DNA from: Paramagnetospirillum marisnigri
Lineage (GTDB): Bacteria; Pseudomonadota; Alphaproteobacteria; Rhodospirillales; Magnetospirillaceae
Assembly (NCBI RefSeq): GCF_001650715.1
Contig: NZ_LWQT01000077.1
Span: forward strand, 186,001 to 250,000
Direction: 5' to 3'
Length of the DNA stretch: 64,000 nucleotides
Below, in pieces: positions 46,751-54,150 of this stretch (positions are counted from its first letter, which is position 1; every line of letters begins with the position of its first letter). A program made the position numbers and the translations under genes. The notes beneath the pieces are model-generated. The model saw nothing but the letters and a program-made list of their open reading frames with translations. It did not search any database and was not told the DNA's origin.

Positions 46751-48670
46751 TCAGGCCCGGCGCCCCTGCTCCAGCCAGGCCTGAAGCATGAGGACCTGCC
46801 AGATTTCGCTTTGCCAGTTCTTGGCGCCCGAGCGCTGCTCGCTCCAGCAGCGCGCCACCAGCGACGCGTTCAGCCAACCCTGGCGGCGCAGCCGGTCCTC
46901 GGCCAGCAGGTCGTCGGCCCAGTCCTTCAGCCGCCCGCCTAGCCAGCGGCGCAGCGGCACCTCGAAGCCCATCTTGGGCCGGTCGACCAGGGCGCGGGGA
47001 ACATGGCGATACAGAACCCGCCGCAGCACTGCCTTGCCGGTGCCGCCGTCGATCTTGAGGCCGGTGGGCAGGCTCCAGGCCAATTCGGCCACGGCGGGGT
47101 CAAGGAAGGGCAGCCGCGCCTCCAGCGAGGCGGCCATGGTGGCGCGGTCGGTCTTGACGCACAGATCGTCGGGCAGATAGCCCAGCACGTCGAGCAGCAT
47201 GGTGGCCAGGGCGGGGTCCGTCACCGCCGGGGTCGGCGCGTCGAACAGGCAGGGCTTGGCGCCAGCGCTTGGCACCAGGTCGGGCATGCCGCGCCAGCGG
47301 GAATAATGCAGCCCCAGCAGCTTGGCTAGGCTGTCGGCCCCCAGCCGCTCGGCGGCGCGGCCCAGGCGGTAGCCGGGATGGCTGCGTCGCTTGGACAAGG
47401 GCGCGGCCAGGGCGGCAAGCCCCTCGGCCGGGGCCGCCAGCCATCGCGCCCCCAGCGCCCCCAGGCGCCGCAGCGGCCGGGGGGTGGCGGCCAGCCCGCG
47501 CCAGTCCCTGGGGATGGAACGGTAAATGCCGTAGCCGCCGAACAATTCGTCGGCGCCATCGCCCGACAGCGCCACCGTCACCTGCCGCCGGGTGACCTGG
47601 GCCAGCAGGGCGGTGGGCAGGGCGGCTTGGTCGGCGAAGGGCTCGTCATACATCCAGGCCAGGCGCGGCACCTGCTCCAACGCTTCGGCATCGGTGATGC
47701 GCACTTCGGTATGAAGGGTGCCGAGATGGTCGGCCACGGCGCGGGCATGGCGGCTTTCGTCCAGCCCGTCCTGGTCGAAGCCGATGGTGAAGCTGTGCAC
47801 CGGCGCGCCGGACAGCTGACGCATCAGGGCGGCGGTGATGGACGAATCGATGCCGCCCGACAGGAACAGCCCCACCGGCACATCGGCCTGCATGCGCAAG
47901 CCCACCGAGGCCCGCAGCAACTCCTCCAGCCGGTCGGCGGCCTGATCCGCCGTGCCGGTGAAGCGGCCCTCCACCGCCCGCGCCGTCGCCACCGCCGACC
48001 AATAGGGCGCAAGCGACGCCTCGCCGCCCCGCACCGTCATCACCGTGCCGGGTTCCAGCTTGCGGGCCTGGGCGTAGATGGTGTGCGGCGCCGGAATCCA
48101 GCCCAGCCGCAGATACAGCCCCATTGTGTCGCGGTCCAGGGTGCCGTCCCAGGCGGGATGGGCGGCCAGGGCCTTCAACTCGGAACCGAACAGCAGGCTG
48201 CCGCCGCACCGCGCCCAATACAGCGGCTTCTCGCCGAAACGGTCGCGGGCCAGATACAGCACCCGGTCGCGGCGGTCCCACAGGGCGAAGGCGAACATGC
48301 CGTCGAAGGCGGCCACCGCCGCCTCCACCCCCCAGGCGGAAACCGCTTCCAGCAGCACCTCGGTGTCGGAATGGCCGCGCCAGGCGATGGCGGGGTCGAG
48401 CCGCGCCTTCAGCGCCGCGTGATTGTAGATTTCGCCGTTGAAGCTGATGACCCAGCGGCCATCATGGGAGTCCATGGGCTGATGCCCCTGGGGGCTGAGA
48501 TCAAGGATGGCGAGGCGGCGGAAACCCAGCGCCAACCCGGCTTGCTCATCCACCCAGGCGCCGTCGTCATCGGGGCCGCGATGGATCAGGGTGGCGGCCA
48601 TGGCCGCCACCACCCGCGCCCGCTCGGGGGTTGTTCCGGTGATGTCGAGGAATCCGGCGAAGCCGCACAT
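46751..48670 (-). CDS. asnB: Glutamine-hydrolysing asparagine synthase (AsnB family)
   Basis: 639 residues. The N-terminal nucleophile Cys2 in MCGFAGFLD starts a class II glutamine amidotransferase domain (to about 215; ISFNGEIYNHAAL). The C-terminal synthetase domain has the PP-loop LFLSGGIDSSI and VALSGDGADELFGGYGIYRS. Such proteins make asparagine, but those in glycan loci (AsnB/WbpS-like) often transfer ammonia to sugar carboxylates. It begins 12 nt after maf, so it belongs to the flagellin-modification operon, and an amidating role there is an inference. Confidence 0.9.
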   Translation of the reverse strand: MCGFAGFLDITGTTPERARVVAAMAATLIHRGPDDDGAWVDEQAGLALGFRRLAILDLSPQGHQPMDSHDGRWVISFNGEIYNHAALKARLDPAIAWRGHSDTEVLLEAVSAWGVEAAVAAFDGMFAFALWDRRDRVLYLARDRFGEKPLYWARCGGSLLFGSELKALAAHPAWDGTLDRDTMGLYLRLGWIPAPHTIYAQARKLEPGTVMTVRGGEASLAPYWSAVATARAVEGRFTGTADQAADRLEELLRASVGLRMQADVPVGLFLSGGIDSSITAALMRQLSGAPVHSFTIGFDQDGLDESRHARAVADHLGTLHTEVRITDAEALEQVPRLAWMYDEPFADQAALPTALLAQVTRRQVTVALSGDGADELFGGYGIYRSIPRDWRGLAATPRPLRRLGALGARWLAAPAEGLAALAAPLSKRRSHPGYRLGRAAERLGADSLAKLLGLHYSRWRGMPDLVPSAGAKPCLFDAPTPAVTDPALATMLLDVLGYLPDDLCVKTDRATMAASLEARLPFLDPAVAELAWSLPTGLKIDGGTGKAVLRRVLYRHVPRALVDRPKMGFEVPLRRWLGGRLKDWADDLLAEDRLRRQGWLNASLVARCWSEQRSGAKNWQSEIWQVLMLQAWLEQGRRA

Positions 48671-48682
48671 GGAAGGACCCGG

Positions 48683-50704
48683 TCAGAAGGTGTAGCCGGG
48701 CGTGGTCTGCAACCCCTTGGCCCATTGCGGCTCCGGCCCGCCGTCGATCCAGGCCTTGCCCTCCTGGAAGATGGCGCGGGTTTCGTCGACCATTTCCTTG
48801 AGCAAGGCGTGGTAGGTGGCCAGGAAATCGGCGAACACCGCCGCCAGTTCGTCCGGATCCTCGATGCGGTTGAGGAAGACGCAGCCGCACTTGGCCATGC
48901 CGATGGTCGGGCCGACGAACATGGCATAGACATGGGAATAGGGACTGGTCACCCAGTTCCGGTTGATCTCGGTCAGCCGATGCAGCATCCAGCGGAAGTC
49001 GTGGCCTTCGCGCTGGATGGCGGCGTACAGTCCGTCAATAGCTGCCTCGAAGGCGTCGATCTCGGCGATATAGGCCGGAAAGTCGAAGCGGGGCAGATAG
49101 CTGCCCTTGGCCAGGAAGGTGGCATCCTTGCGGACCCGGGCATAGATGGCCTCGCGGTCCAACGGCTGGCCTTCGAATTCCAGCGCCTCGGACAGCTTGG
49201 GCACGGTGCCCTTGATGAAGCCGCCATCGCTGCAATTGAAGGCGCGCAGGCCGAACTTGGTGACCTTGCCTTCCAGCATGTCACGGGTCCAGGACAGCAC
49301 CAGGTTGGACTGGATGGTGCCGCCGAAATTGCCGGGAAAGCTGTAATCCCCAACCATCTTGCCGGTCTTGAAGGTCTTCGAGGTGTAATAGGCGGTGTTC
49401 TTGGAGTGATGGGACTCGCCGTCGCGCCAGCCGCAATCCATGCCGAACAGATAGACGTGGCGGAACCCCATGCGCGCCGCCACCGCCACGATGGTGTTGG
49501 CCACGTTGGGGCCGATGGCGGTCATTTCGGGGAAGTCGCCCTTGAAGCAGCGGGTCGAGACCACGCTGTCGCGGAAGAAGTAGTAGGACTCGTCGAACAG
49601 GGCGGAAATGCGGGGATTGACCGTCGCCGAGGCCACCAGCTTGATGCCGGTGAAGCGCCGCTCGGGGAAGCGCTCGGCATTCAGGTCCAGCATGTGCTCG
49701 AAAAAGTCCCAGACCTGGACCACGTTTTCCAGTTCCACGTGGTAGTCGGGCACGATGCCATGGGCCAGCAGGATCTGCAGTGACGATCCGCCCGAGAAGA
49801 TCACCGCGTGATCGCGCCACTTCTTGATGTATTCGATGTCGTTGTCCACCGACGGTCCCGAGGTGATCAGGAAGGCGGGCGCGCTGATGGGAAGCTGAAA
49901 GTCTCCCGACAGCATATGACAGTCGTATTTCTGCAGATTGGCTATGGTGTTCCACAGCATCTTGCGCTCGTCCTCGAAATATCCGCGCTGGATCATCTTC
50001 AGCGGAACATTGTTGACGAGATCCTCGAAGGCCTTGTCCAACGCCCAGGACGGGTAATGGCGATAGTAGTACGAGCCGTCGATGCCCAGATCGCCCTGCT
50101 CCTCCACCAACACCGCCAGATCGCGCACCAGCTGGACCGGCAACTCGCCCAGGACGAAGGACAGCTTGGTCCCGGTCTGATCGCAGCGGTCGGCAATGGC
50201 ACTCCAGTCGATGGTCGCCAGGGAATGCAGAACGAATTCGTCGATGGCTTCCACCACCACCACCCAATCCACCGTCAGGCTCTCCACCAGGGTGGGCAGG
50301 TGATGGCCAAGACCGAGGCCGAAGACGAACAGGAAACCGGCCCGGCAGACCGGCGCCCCGGTCAGGACGGTGGCCTTATGGCGGACGACACTGTCGAGCA
50401 TGCTGTTGAACAGCCGAGCCGAACTGGGGCTGTCGCCGGACATGGCGTTGACGACCTGATAGCCCACCCGGCGCGGGGTCTCGATGAAGTCCCGCGCCTG
50501 TGCCAGCGCCAGTTCGCGGCCGTCGCACTTATAGAGCCGACCGCTGCCCAGGTCGATATCCACCGGCACGCCTTGGTCGCGGATGATGCTGCTGAGCGGC
50601 GTCCGGATGGCCGTCAGCCGCTCATGCACCTCGGGAAACCGACGCCGGAACAGTTCCAGGTTACGTTCGAACAGTCCCGGCGATCCGTCGGCGGCCTCGG
50701 TCAT
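48683..50704 (-). CDS. maf: Motility-associated factor glycosyltransferase Maf (DUF115)
   Basis: 673 residues of the Maf flagellin glycosyltransferase family. The central DUF115 domain (about 215-430) includes FLITSGPSVDNDIEYIKKWR, IVPDYHVELENVVQVWDF and GMDCGWRDGESHHSKN, flanked by N- and C-terminal alpha-helical regions. From memory, a Maf of Magnetospirillum AMB-1, needed for flagellin glycosylation and flagellum formation, has been structurally studied, and this protein is likely that one or a near relative. ATG at 50704 overlaps the upstream stop by 1 nt; a GTG one codon earlier is also open. Confidence 0.92.
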   Translation of the reverse strand: MTEAADGSPGLFERNLELFRRRFPEVHERLTAIRTPLSSIIRDQGVPVDIDLGSGRLYKCDGRELALAQARDFIETPRRVGYQVVNAMSGDSPSSARLFNSMLDSVVRHKATVLTGAPVCRAGFLFVFGLGLGHHLPTLVESLTVDWVVVVEAIDEFVLHSLATIDWSAIADRCDQTGTKLSFVLGELPVQLVRDLAVLVEEQGDLGIDGSYYYRHYPSWALDKAFEDLVNNVPLKMIQRGYFEDERKMLWNTIANLQKYDCHMLSGDFQLPISAPAFLITSGPSVDNDIEYIKKWRDHAVIFSGGSSLQILLAHGIVPDYHVELENVVQVWDFFEHMLDLNAERFPERRFTGIKLVASATVNPRISALFDESYYFFRDSVVSTRCFKGDFPEMTAIGPNVANTIVAVAARMGFRHVYLFGMDCGWRDGESHHSKNTAYYTSKTFKTGKMVGDYSFPGNFGGTIQSNLVLSWTRDMLEGKVTKFGLRAFNCSDGGFIKGTVPKLSEALEFEGQPLDREAIYARVRKDATFLAKGSYLPRFDFPAYIAEIDAFEAAIDGLYAAIQREGHDFRWMLHRLTEINRNWVTSPYSHVYAMFVGPTIGMAKCGCVFLNRIEDPDELAAVFADFLATYHALLKEMVDETRAIFQEGKAWIDGGPEPQWAKGLQTTPGYTF

Positions 50705-52617
50705 CACGCCTGCAGGCGTCCAAGGGCCTGGGTCACCGCGTCCTCGATCATGGCGGCGAAGCCCTTGGGCGAGAAGGCCGGAACCGCGGCAAGCCGCTCG
50801 GGCAACGCCGCCCGCATGGCCGACAGCGCCGCCACATTCCCCGCCAGGGCGCTCGCCGCCGCCACATAGGCGGCCACATCGGACGCCACCAGGCTCTCGC
50901 CCAAACCGGCCGCGGCCAGGAAGGCCCCCATATCGGCGCCGACGCCCTCGCTGGCCAGGGCAATCACCGGAGCGCCACCGCGGAGGAACTCGCCAAAGGC
51001 AAGGTTATCGGCGGAGGGGAACGGCATCAGGGCCACATCGATGCTGGCGGCGAATTCGGCGCGGCTGCCACCCCGGACCACGTCGATACGGTGGGAGACA
51101 CCGGCATTGCCGAACAGGGCCACCACCTCGTCCACCATCGGCGGGTCCTGGAACAGGCCGGTATCACGGAACAACAGGGTCGAGCCCGGAACCGCCTGCA
51201 GGATACGCCCCCAGACCATGGCCAGTCGCGGGGTGAGTTCCGCCCGGGACAGTTCGGTCCCGAAGGTGATGGTTCCCGCCTCGACGGCGGGAGCAGGCGT
51301 CGCCACCGGCGCCGCCCCCAAGGGGTCACCCAGGCAATAGCGACCCGAGGCGAGCGCGATCTCGCCCTCGCCCGCTTCACGACCCACGACACAGGCCAGG
51401 TAATTGCCGGGCGCGCGCCCGGCCACCGGGAGATGCAGCCAATTGATCTGCAAGGGCGCGGTATTGCGCTGGAACAGCCCACTCTTGGCGGGGGCCAACA
51501 GACCATCGGCGTCGATCACCACATGCACGCCCTCGCCACGGATCAGGGCACCCATGGTGGTGACGTCCAGGGCGGATACGTCACGCCACAGCTCGAAGGC
51601 GCCACGGGTCCAATAATTGGCGGGACTGTCGGCTTCGCCCTTGCCGAAGCCGATGACATTGACCTTGGAGCGGTCATGGGCCTTGGCGACGGCGCCAACC
51701 ATGGCCCGCAGTTCGGGGGTGTCGAGGGAGGAGCAGAGATAGCAGATGCGGATGGGCGAGGCCCCGGCATATTTGGGCGCCGGGCGCACCGTCTTCGGCG
51801 CGGCGGCGGCCAGTTGCGCCGCCCAAGCCTCGGCGATACCGGTCGCCTTGATCTCGGCACCGTCGAAATAGCGGAAATCGGCCATGGCCGCGCCAAGAAT
51901 GGCGGCCGAGGTCGGGGCGCGGGCGATGGCTTCCTGATGGCAGGCCAGACCCTCGCGGGCCGTGCCGGACTTGATCAGGCAATGGGCGAGGCGGCTGAGC
52001 AGGGTGGCGCTGGGACCCGCCAGGGTGGCGATGGAGCGCAGCATGCCGATGGCTTCGGCGGTATCACCCCGCAGCAACTGGATCTGGGCATAGGTGTCCA
52101 GGGCTTCCACATCATTGGAGGTGACGCTGAGATGCTGCTCCACATGGAATTTGGCCTGTTCCAGATCCCCCATGTTCATGGCGGCGATGCCACGGGCCAG
52201 CAAGGGCTTGGCGGTGATCTGCGTCAGGATTTCGGTGAACTTGGGGAAGTCCGGCCCGAAATAGGGAGTTACTTCATTGGCGGCCTCTTCGGTGGTGGCC
52301 AGCTTGGCATAGTAGATGGCGTCGGCCAGGCAACCGGCCAGACCGTAGAGCACCGCCAGGATTTCCGGCACCTCCGCCGGATAGGACACGCTGTCCACCT
52401 GGGACCGCAGCAGCTTGATGGCATAACCGATGCCACCGGCACGGTAATAGATGGCGGCCAGGGCGCAGGTGACGTCGGCGACCAAACCCGGCTCGGAAAT
52501 TGAGGTCTCGGCGAGAGCCAGAGCCGCCTTGTCGTCCCCGGCTCGGACCAGCTCCATCATCTTGCTGCGGAAATCTTGGACGGCCCCGGCCGCCGCCTGG
52601 CTGTTGGAATTGGACAC
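50704..52617 (-). CDS. TPR protein with GT41-like (O-GlcNAc-transferase-type) C-terminal domain
   Basis: 637 residues, GTG start at 52617 behind a G-rich ribosome binding site. The N-terminal half (about 15-260) is a set of degenerate tetratricopeptide helices (e.g. DLEQAKFHVEQHLSVTSNDV). The C-terminal half (about 275-620) resembles SPINDLY/OGT catalytic domains: RICYLCSSLDTPE, PLQINWLHLPVAGRAPGNYL, ITFGTELSRAELTP and DVALMPFPSADNLAFGEFL. TPR-GT41 proteins such as Caulobacter FlmG modify flagellin. Its position between flaF and maf argues for flagellin as substrate. The catalytic lysine usual in GT41 could not be placed. Confidence 0.82.
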   Translation of the reverse strand: MSNSNSQAAAGAVQDFRSKMMELVRAGDDKAALALAETSISEPGLVADVTCALAAIYYRAGGIGYAIKLLRSQVDSVSYPAEVPEILAVLYGLAGCLADAIYYAKLATTEEAANEVTPYFGPDFPKFTEILTQITAKPLLARGIAAMNMGDLEQAKFHVEQHLSVTSNDVEALDTYAQIQLLRGDTAEAIGMLRSIATLAGPSATLLSRLAHCLIKSGTAREGLACHQEAIARAPTSAAILGAAMADFRYFDGAEIKATGIAEAWAAQLAAAAPKTVRPAPKYAGASPIRICYLCSSLDTPELRAMVGAVAKAHDRSKVNVIGFGKGEADSPANYWTRGAFELWRDVSALDVTTMGALIRGEGVHVVIDADGLLAPAKSGLFQRNTAPLQINWLHLPVAGRAPGNYLACVVGREAGEGEIALASGRYCLGDPLGAAPVATPAPAVEAGTITFGTELSRAELTPRLAMVWGRILQAVPGSTLLFRDTGLFQDPPMVDEVVALFGNAGVSHRIDVVRGGSRAEFAASIDVALMPFPSADNLAFGEFLRGGAPVIALASEGVGADMGAFLAAAGLGESLVASDVAAYVAAASALAGNVAALSAMRAALPERLAAVPAFSPKGFAAMIEDAVTQALGRLQA

Positions 52618-52660
52618 GGATCACCCCCTGGTCTTGCGTCCCGACGATAAATACCGCCGA

Positions 52661-53089
52661 TCAGATCACTTCATTGGTGGTTAGATTGGCCTGGGGCTGT
52701 GGCTCCGTCCCTTCCTTGGGGGGGATGACCGTGAACAGGCCACCAGCCAACTGCCGGTTGATATTGATCAGGACGTCGGCCTTGCTGCGTTCGCGGGTGG
52801 CGATGATATCGACCGTGCGCTTATCGACGAAATTGGATAGCGACAGCCAGTTCTGGCGCAACTCCAGCGGCAGGTCGCATTCGGGTGAAGACAGCTCCGA
52901 CTGATAGATCGTCCACAGCTTCCAGTTGAGACGCACAGCCCCCAGGAAATCCTCGATATCCACCGATTCCGATTGCCCTTCCGACATGCGCCGTGCCGTC
53001 TCGGTCAGCGCCCAGGCCTCGGTCTCACGCGGGTTTCCCCCGGCAGGAATAGACCGATAGCGGCCTTGATCGGTTTTGGGATAGGCCAT
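52661..53089 (-). CDS. flaF: Flagellar biosynthesis regulator FlaF
   Basis: 142 residues with the FlaF pattern: an N-terminal YPKTDQGRYRSIPAGGNPRETEAWALTE-like lead, then a helical core with LGAVRLNWKLWTIYQSELSS and NWLSLSNFVDKRTVDIIATR. FlaF is needed for flagellin translation or export and acts with FlbT in Caulobacter, where FlbT binds the flagellin mRNA leader. FlbT is not seen here. The C-terminal 35 residues are unlike the family. It is downstream of flagellin after the terminator. Confidence 0.87.
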   Translation of the reverse strand: MAYPKTDQGRYRSIPAGGNPRETEAWALTETARRMSEGQSESVDIEDFLGAVRLNWKLWTIYQSELSSPECDLPLELRQNWLSLSNFVDKRTVDIIATRERSKADVLININRQLAGGLFTVIPPKEGTEPQPQANLTTNEVI

Positions 53090-53189
53090 TTGAGCGAACC
53101 TCCGGCTTCACAGGCGATGATCCCGTAACAATGAGCCTGGATTGGTTAAGTTTGGGTTGATGGCTCACCAAAAGCCAGTCGCGCGTCAC

Positions 53190-53225
53190 GAAAGAAAAAG
53201 CGGACGGCGATAAACGCCGTCCGCT
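53190..53225 (-). terminator. Rho-independent terminator of the flagellin gene
   Basis: An 11-bp perfect stem AGCGGACGGCG/CGCCGTCCGCT (53199-53209, 53215-53225) with loop ATAAA. On the minus strand it is followed by TTTTTCTTTC. It lies 31 nt past the flagellin stop, so flaF and the glycosyltransferases depend on read-through or their own promoter. Confidence 0.85.
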
Positions 53226-53256
53226 CAATTCTACCAAGCTCTAACGAGCCCGCGAC

Positions 53257-54150
53257 TTACCGGAAGAGCGACAGAACGCCCTGCTCGGCCTGGGCGGCCC
53301 CGGAGAGCGCCTGAATGCCGAGCTGCTGACGTGTCTGCAGCGACACCAGGTTGGCGCCTTCTTCGTTCAGATCGGTCAGCACCAGCTTGTCGCCGCCGAT
53401 CTTCAGGGTATTGATGTATTCCTTGGTGAAGTCCAGACGGGTCTGGAGCAGAGCCACGTTGGCACCCAGGGTCTTCGCAGTGGTACGAACCGAGGTGATG
53501 CCCGATTCGAACATGGCGATGTAGGCGTCGAACACCGACACCGACGAGGACACCGAGGAGAAGCCGGCGAACATCGACACACCGGCGATACGGGAGATAC
53601 CGGCCGAGGTAGCGATGACGGAGGCGCCCAGGGTGAAGGCGGTCATGACCAGGCCACCGGACACTGTGACGTTGGCGCCGTCCACCTGCAGAACGTTGGC
53701 GGTCTTTTCCGAGAACTGCACCTTGATGTTCGAAGCGGTCGCGTTGATCAGGTTCAGGCCCTGATAGGACGCGTCGTTCGCAAGGTAGTTCATCTGAGAG
53801 GCCAGGGTATTCAGCTGGTCGCCGAGGGTCTTACGGTCCGCTTCGGACGCAGACTTGGCGGAGAGCACGATACCTTTCATCTGGACCATCAGGTTTTCAA
53901 CCTTCGTCACCGCATTAAGAGCGGTCGACAGATTGCTGATACCCTGATCGATTTCGGACTTGCGGGTCGACATGTCGCCCGCGCGATCCTTCAGGGACTT
54001 GTCCTGGAAGAACGCAACCGCGTCGTCGATGGCGGAGCTGACGTTCTTGCCGGTGGACAGGCGGGTATTGGTACGAGCAACGAGGTCGCCGGTATTTTGC
54101 AGCGACAGCAGGTTGTTGCGGATCGTGGCAGAGAGTGTGACGTCGGCCAT
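53257..54150 (-). CDS. fliC: Flagellin
   Basis: 297 residues, a short flagellin with D0/D1 domains. The N-terminal part (MADVTLSATIRNNLLSLQNT, then RLSTGKNVSSAIDDAVAFFQ) and the C-terminal coil (LQTRLDFTKEYINTLKIGGD and onwards to QQLGIQALSGAAQAEQGVLS) are conserved. The small central domain (about 165-215) is rich in Ser, Thr, Ala and Gly (SMFAGFSSVSSSVSV), giving many O-glycosylation candidates. AAGGA lies 7 nt before the ATG. It has a 5' leader hairpin and its own terminator. Codon use looks normal for the window. Confidence 0.96.
   Translation of the reverse strand: MADVTLSATIRNNLLSLQNTGDLVARTNTRLSTGKNVSSAIDDAVAFFQDKSLKDRAGDMSTRKSEIDQGISNLSTALNAVTKVENLMVQMKGIVLSAKSASEADRKTLGDQLNTLASQMNYLANDASYQGLNLINATASNIKVQFSEKTANVLQVDGANVTVSGGLVMTAFTLGASVIATSAGISRIAGVSMFAGFSSVSSSVSVFDAYIAMFESGITSVRTTAKTLGANVALLQTRLDFTKEYINTLKIGGDKLVLTDLNEEGANLVSLQTRQQLGIQALSGAAQAEQGVLSLFR

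Follow-up and report, generated by a model that had tools for sequence, protein, structure and literature searches.

Does a flagellar locus that encodes both a protein related to glycosyltransferase family GT41 and a Maf enzyme possess two flagellin glycosyltransferases, or one transferase and a helper? According to excerpts of two papers (PMC11339370, PMC12645811), no acceptor sequon is known for Maf enzymes, which raises the question of how they choose flagellin and particular Ser/Thr residues. The preliminary description of this DNA had read the two genes as two active flagellin transferases side by side.

The locus and its genome

The genes concerned are listed below with their coordinates in the window (the whole stretch of DNA that was analysed, 64,000 nucleotides). 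The TPR-GT41-like protein is referred to as the partner.

53257..54150, minus strand: flagellin, 297 amino acids, the presumed acceptor (Flagellin_N PF00669, 55.5 bits; Flagellin_C PF00700, 27 bits; both above cut-off)
52661..53089, minus strand: FlaF, flagellin secretion chaperone/regulator (PF07309, 84.7 bits)
50704..52617, minus strand: partner, TPR-GT41-like protein, 637 amino acids (PF13844, 34.7 bits with a cut-off of 25, and TPR); TPR domain at residues 2-271, GT-B domain from residue 289
48683..50707, minus strand: Maf flagellin glycosyltransferase, 674 amino acids, family motifs intact, with the N-terminal and central domains of the family (PF20157, 206 bits; PF01973, 118 bits)
46751-48670, minus strand: asparagine-synthase-like gene (TIGR01536, 467.6 bits)

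The order of the first four genes on one strand agrees with the preliminary description. Flagellin and flaF are 167 bases apart, flaF and the partner gene 43 bases; the genes of the partner and of Maf do overlap, by 4 bases, provided that Maf starts at GTG. The flagellin, which had been called Ser/Thr-rich, is so only mildly: Ser and Thr make up 19.9% of its residues vs 17.3% in the genome's other flagellin, and 18 of the 74 residues of its central segment. The asparagine-synthase-like gene begins 12 bases past Maf. Of the genus loci only that of the window was seen to have it, as none of the ORFs picked in the other 12 matches; its product could serve sugar amidation or be unrelated to the locus.

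The source genome (G000) is of the Magnetospirillum type (4.62 Mb, 131 contigs) and encodes two flagellins, four Maf-like genes and four NeuB genes. The absence of an adjacent sugar-biosynthesis gene was confirmed for NeuB, which has no match on the window's contig; the four NeuB genes, on other contigs, comprise one PseI equivalog, two NeuB_NnaB equivalogs, each beside NeuC, and one gene below both cut-offs. With PseI and NeuB/NeuC genes on other contigs, it is plausible that a nonulosonic-acid donor for Maf is available in the genome, though none of these genes is adjacent. The three further Maf genes are found on contigs C55 (L132), C66 (L133) and C43 (L134), the last of them near a NeuB gene; no partner was found in the 13-14 kb around each. 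Outside the window, at about 82-134 kb of contig C28 (L063-L065), 14 open frames match PF13844 (GT41) above the cut-off and one below it.

The Maf of the window is a homologue of the solved Maf of Magnetospirillum magneticum AMB-1 (PDB 5mu5), with which it aligns over 635 residues (E 2e-66). The residues G284-P285-S286, E327, R379, G422-x-D424-x-G426 and H434 are kept in all 29 Mafs that are paired with a partner. An excerpt of PMC7591256, citing Sulzenbacher 2018, states that Magnetospirillum magneticum needs its Maf to glycosylate flagellin.

Distribution of the partner and Maf

A match to the window's Maf is present in 13 of the 17 genus genomes, and in all 13 a TPR-GT41 family protein adjoins a Maf. 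The genus loci have either the window's order, flaF - partner - Maf (6/13), or the order long flagellin - Maf - partner (7/13); a flagellin lies within the same gene string in 12 of the 13 and was not found in the G014 stretch. The locus of 5mu5 itself was located in G006, one contig of 4,967,148 bases, whose Maf shows two visible differences from 5mu5 in 666 residues; flagellin comes before this Maf and the partner directly after it. The AMB-1 locus thus differs from that of the window (flagellin - Maf - partner vs flagellin - flaF - partner - Maf), and also in its long flagellin and in its partner, which is about 23% identical to the window's. In five AMB-1-type loci (L055-L058, L060) the genes after the partner encode, in turn, a protein of about 340 amino acids, a FlaF-like protein (opposite strand), a protein of about 284-299 amino acids and another FlaF-like protein.

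Across the class, Maf is found in 21 of 337 genomes. Maf loci were fetched from 19 of the 20 besides G000 (that of G254 was left out; those of the multi-Maf genomes G227, G194 and G122 were fetched in part), and 16 of the 19 contain the partner, four of the 16 as weak matches (42-80 bits). Four loci have the order flagellin - flaF - partner - Maf, and eight have partner - Maf with no flaF between them; in two the arrangement is convergent, and in the other two it is flagellin - Maf - flaF - partner. No partner was found in the Maf loci fetched from G194, G122 and G093, the last on a short contig. Two of these are counter-cases to a strict pairing rule: one Maf of G194 has right beside it a GT41 protein in which the lysine discussed below is retained (L108), and in G122 the partner-module matches and Maf sit on different contigs. 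The recurrence of the four-gene arrangement in related genomes, across genus and class, rules out that it arose by chance or is specific to one strain. The grouping of a GT41-related protein and Maf beside flagellin, correctly noted before, therefore reflects genetic coupling; the view that such pairing is unusual does not hold, as it is the rule in both samples.

In a quick tree with long-branch warnings, the 12 fetched Mafs that have no partner do not form a single group but are spread over several branches, and the three other Mafs of the source genome group together. Partner presence requires 6 label changes on the Maf tree vs 10.5 expected, a value as low as this being reached in 1-2 of 500 shuffles.

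The association was also examined from the partner side, using a profile of the partner TPR module (A4) built from 15 partner sequences, nine of them from genomes in the class census. The profile matches 18 of the 337 class genomes, 17 of which have Maf (Fisher 6e-24); when the nine genomes feeding the profile are set aside, Maf is present in eight of the nine remaining (Fisher 1.4e-12), both values overstating independence because several other counted genomes are relatives of those nine. The only module match without Maf, in G208, is marginal and has internal stops. Four Maf genomes are missed by the profile (G093, G189, G194 and G254), although the G189 locus does hold a weak partner. A named collection contains 11 partner loci, seven of them from genus genomes already counted, and eight have Maf within the flanks; the genomes of the loci with no Maf in the flanks (L201, L202 and L206) and that of L200 all have Maf (4/4 searched). 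Close relatives of the partner gene are carried by, among other named organisms, Paramagnetospirillum kuznetsovii LBB-42 and Magnetospirillum sp. SS-4. Among 398 phylum genomes the module has six matches, two of them strong and both in this class. One genome-by-genome candidate scoring covered just three candidates per genome.

Fold, active site and maintenance of the partner

In its fold (TPR and GT-B, PF13844) the partner matches GT41, as had been suspected. In its AlphaFold2 model (mean pLDDT 85.4, pTM 0.76) Foldseek ranks SPINDLY first (8dti, TMq 0.70) and also finds TtOGT (5djs, TMt 0.84, rmsd 3.4). The relatives of the partner vary, and some score below the PF13844 cut-off or have no match, e.g. 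L098 and L102.

The active-site residues of GT41 are, however, lost. Glu460 of the partner aligns in HMMER with residue 341 of TtOGT (5djs, the title of which gives a K341M mutant) and with K665 of SPINDLY, a position that we take to be the essential catalytic lysine; the His and Thr columns are presumably the active-site histidine and the donor-site threonines. None of these residues is present in the window's partner. The comparison covered 33 partners (29 from Maf loci, with L200, L201, L202 and L206) and unpaired GT41 sequences, 19 and later 18, all but two from flaF loci; five of the unpaired come from G194, a Maf genome, and two of those (L108) are not at a flaF locus. The unpaired total of 37 stands for 36, as L171 is a cut copy of a sequence in L125 and is counted twice (the entropy test omits it). 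The catalytic Lys is kept in one of the 33 partners (L099) vs 37/37 unpaired sequences, the His in 1/33 vs 34/37, and the two donor-site Thr columns in 4/33 and 5/33 vs 36/37 and 30/37. Arg (11/33) and Glu (8/33) are found at the Lys position of the partners, and the structural positions Asp527 (33/33) and Pro550 (32/33) persist.

The seven pocket columns, picked after the loss had been seen, have a mean entropy of 2.82 bits in the partners vs a GT-domain mean of 2.45, a variability that 95% of random column sets do not exceed. In the unpaired sequences the corresponding values are 0.76 vs 2.04, and 1 in 10,000 random sets is as low; columns 373 and 484 are kept in just 10/18 and 6/18 of the second unpaired set. 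Within subclades the pocket is steadier: Glu460 is found in 7/7 of clade A with L200, and Arg in 6/7 of clade B. This local steadiness in two genus subclades, the Arg in 11/33 and the Lys of L099 make altered catalysis possible. With Lys, His and Thr gone and the pocket not conserved family-wide, the sequences compared make it probable that the earlier reading, with two flagellin glycosyltransferases in one locus, is mistaken.

In the flaF loci L116, L119, L123 and L181 of other class genomes, a Lys-keeping GT41 protein comes directly after flagellin-flaF or flaF. Such proteins may be active transferases of flagellin and related to the ancestor of the partner.

In a quick tree with 69 sequences, a single branch separates the 33 partners from the rest (SH-aLRT 99; long-branch warnings). 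Lys105 is found in 33/33 and Leu106 in 30/33, each in 0/19 unpaired GT41 proteins; Asp351 and Thr354 are each found in 32/33 partners and in 5/19 and 1/19 unpaired, respectively. For five partner pairs dN/dS is 0.14-0.28 in the TPR domain and 0.20-0.37 in the GT domain, and these low values in both domains indicate that the protein is maintained. A decaying gene was rejected on the same values and on the open frame in all 33 partners analysed.

Role of the partner and comparison with known systems

We lean slightly towards the view that flagellin receives a nonulosonic acid from a two-component transferase encoded by the locus, with Maf as the catalyst and the partner as a pseudo-GT41 protein that binds flagellin. 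Maf would attach this presumed sugar to Ser/Thr residues of flagellin. The computed fold, the loss of the GT41 active-site residues, the intact Maf motifs, the tight genetic coupling and the maintenance of the partner speak for this reading, and the TPR domain of FlmG and the GlfM factor of Maf-2, both described below, are precedents for it. The partner would descend from an OGT/SPINDLY-type enzyme, keeping the TPR and GT-B scaffold after losing the active site and any catalysis; it would most likely bind flagellin through its TPR domain in the cytoplasm and, in contact with Maf, hand it over prior to export, with the GT-B part as a scaffold. A wider proposal, to which we give a little less than an even chance, is that the partners are pseudo-glycosyltransferases of a single OGT/SPINDLY-derived origin, found almost only in Maf-bearing Alphaproteobacteria (as sampled), which were turned into the acceptor-recognition subunit of Maf.

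Purifying selection on the GT domain and the partner-specific conservation of Asp351 and Thr354 argue against a pseudoenzyme, and an enzyme with new chemistry is the main rival explanation. The partner would then be an active second transferase with a changed donor or chemistry, which places a further sugar either on the nonulosonic acid that Maf has attached or on Ser/Thr residues elsewhere. The two-step route suggested in the preliminary description would be of this kind; the analysis yielded evidence neither for it nor for a two-substrate route, though either may exist. The GT-B fold, intact in the model, is consistent with this, as are the selection on the GT domain, the Arg for Lys in a third of the partners and the locally steady pocket; Fgi-1 of Aeromonas, a separate transferase, offers a precedent by extending flagellin pseudaminic acid, though an excerpt of PMC7874193 describes it as GT-A. 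As the lost Lys, His and Thr positions have not been re-conserved across the family, we consider an active partner rather unlikely. A partner that works as a chaperone or assembly factor, recognising glycosylated flagellin after Maf has acted and having no effect on Maf, is less probable still. Its position beside flaF and flagellin in many loci would suit such a factor, a glycan reader would be expected to couple with Maf, and the FlmG paper, in an excerpt (PMC7591256), speculates on an assembly factor of this kind; its GT ancestry and the fact that its gene directly overlaps maf in the window are no less compatible with participation in the transfer.

The partner could also have been an orthologue of FlmG of Caulobacter, giving two nonulosonic-acid transferases in parallel. 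Both have a TPR N-terminus and a GT-B C-terminus (about 600-640 amino acids) and lie near flaF and flagellin, and FlmG had been described earlier as GT41-type. That label was not upheld: four FlmG-like proteins (L159, L176, L142 and L143), identified as such from layout and neighbours (near flaF and flagellins) and not named FlmG, have strong TPRs and an EQGxGDE-type motif, and no PF13844 match; the excerpts of PMC7591256 say just 'GT-B superfamily'. The ORF next to L159 (597 amino acids) reads like FlbT, judged from its first residues only. The C-terminal domain of the partner is not of the type seen in these FlmG-like proteins and instead matches PF13844 and SPINDLY/OGT; orthology was therefore rejected and is, in our judgement, very improbable.

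With regard to known systems, the partner has the TPR and GT-B fold of SPINDLY and OGT (GT41, e.g. TtOGT, 5djs) at 20-23% identity, and differs from them in lacking the catalytic Lys, the His and the donor-site Thr and in having its own TPR module with Lys105-Leu106. FlmG, according to the same excerpts (PMC7591256), acts on flagellin in the cytoplasm of C. crescentus, which is without Maf, and binds flagellin with its TPR domain and not with its GT domain. Fgi-1 was discarded as a homologue of the partner because of its GT-A assignment. No description of the partner was found in the literature searched, which was mostly free-access; one may exist, e.g. in the AMB-1 Maf paper. If the wider proposal is true, a transferase that has lost its activity directs an active one of a different family, Maf, to flagellin. 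A pseudoenzyme of this kind would be a case of the O-GlcNAc-transferase fold serving for recognition alone; a GT41 label beside flagellin need not imply a second glycosyltransferase. The choice of acceptor by Maf would also become testable, as the conserved partner is present in the cultured AMB-1, whose Maf is solved. The closest parallel in function would be GlfM, which is likewise encoded beside its Maf and aids its action on flagellin: the co-encoded GlfM is necessary for Maf-2 to enter a ternary complex that includes flagellin (Unay 2024, as cited in an excerpt of PMC13317340). The likeness is one of description only; by analogy, the role of the partner would match that of GlfM in the Maf-2 system, and the pseudo-GT41 protein would take its place as a likely accessory among the systems of Maf plus accessory factor.
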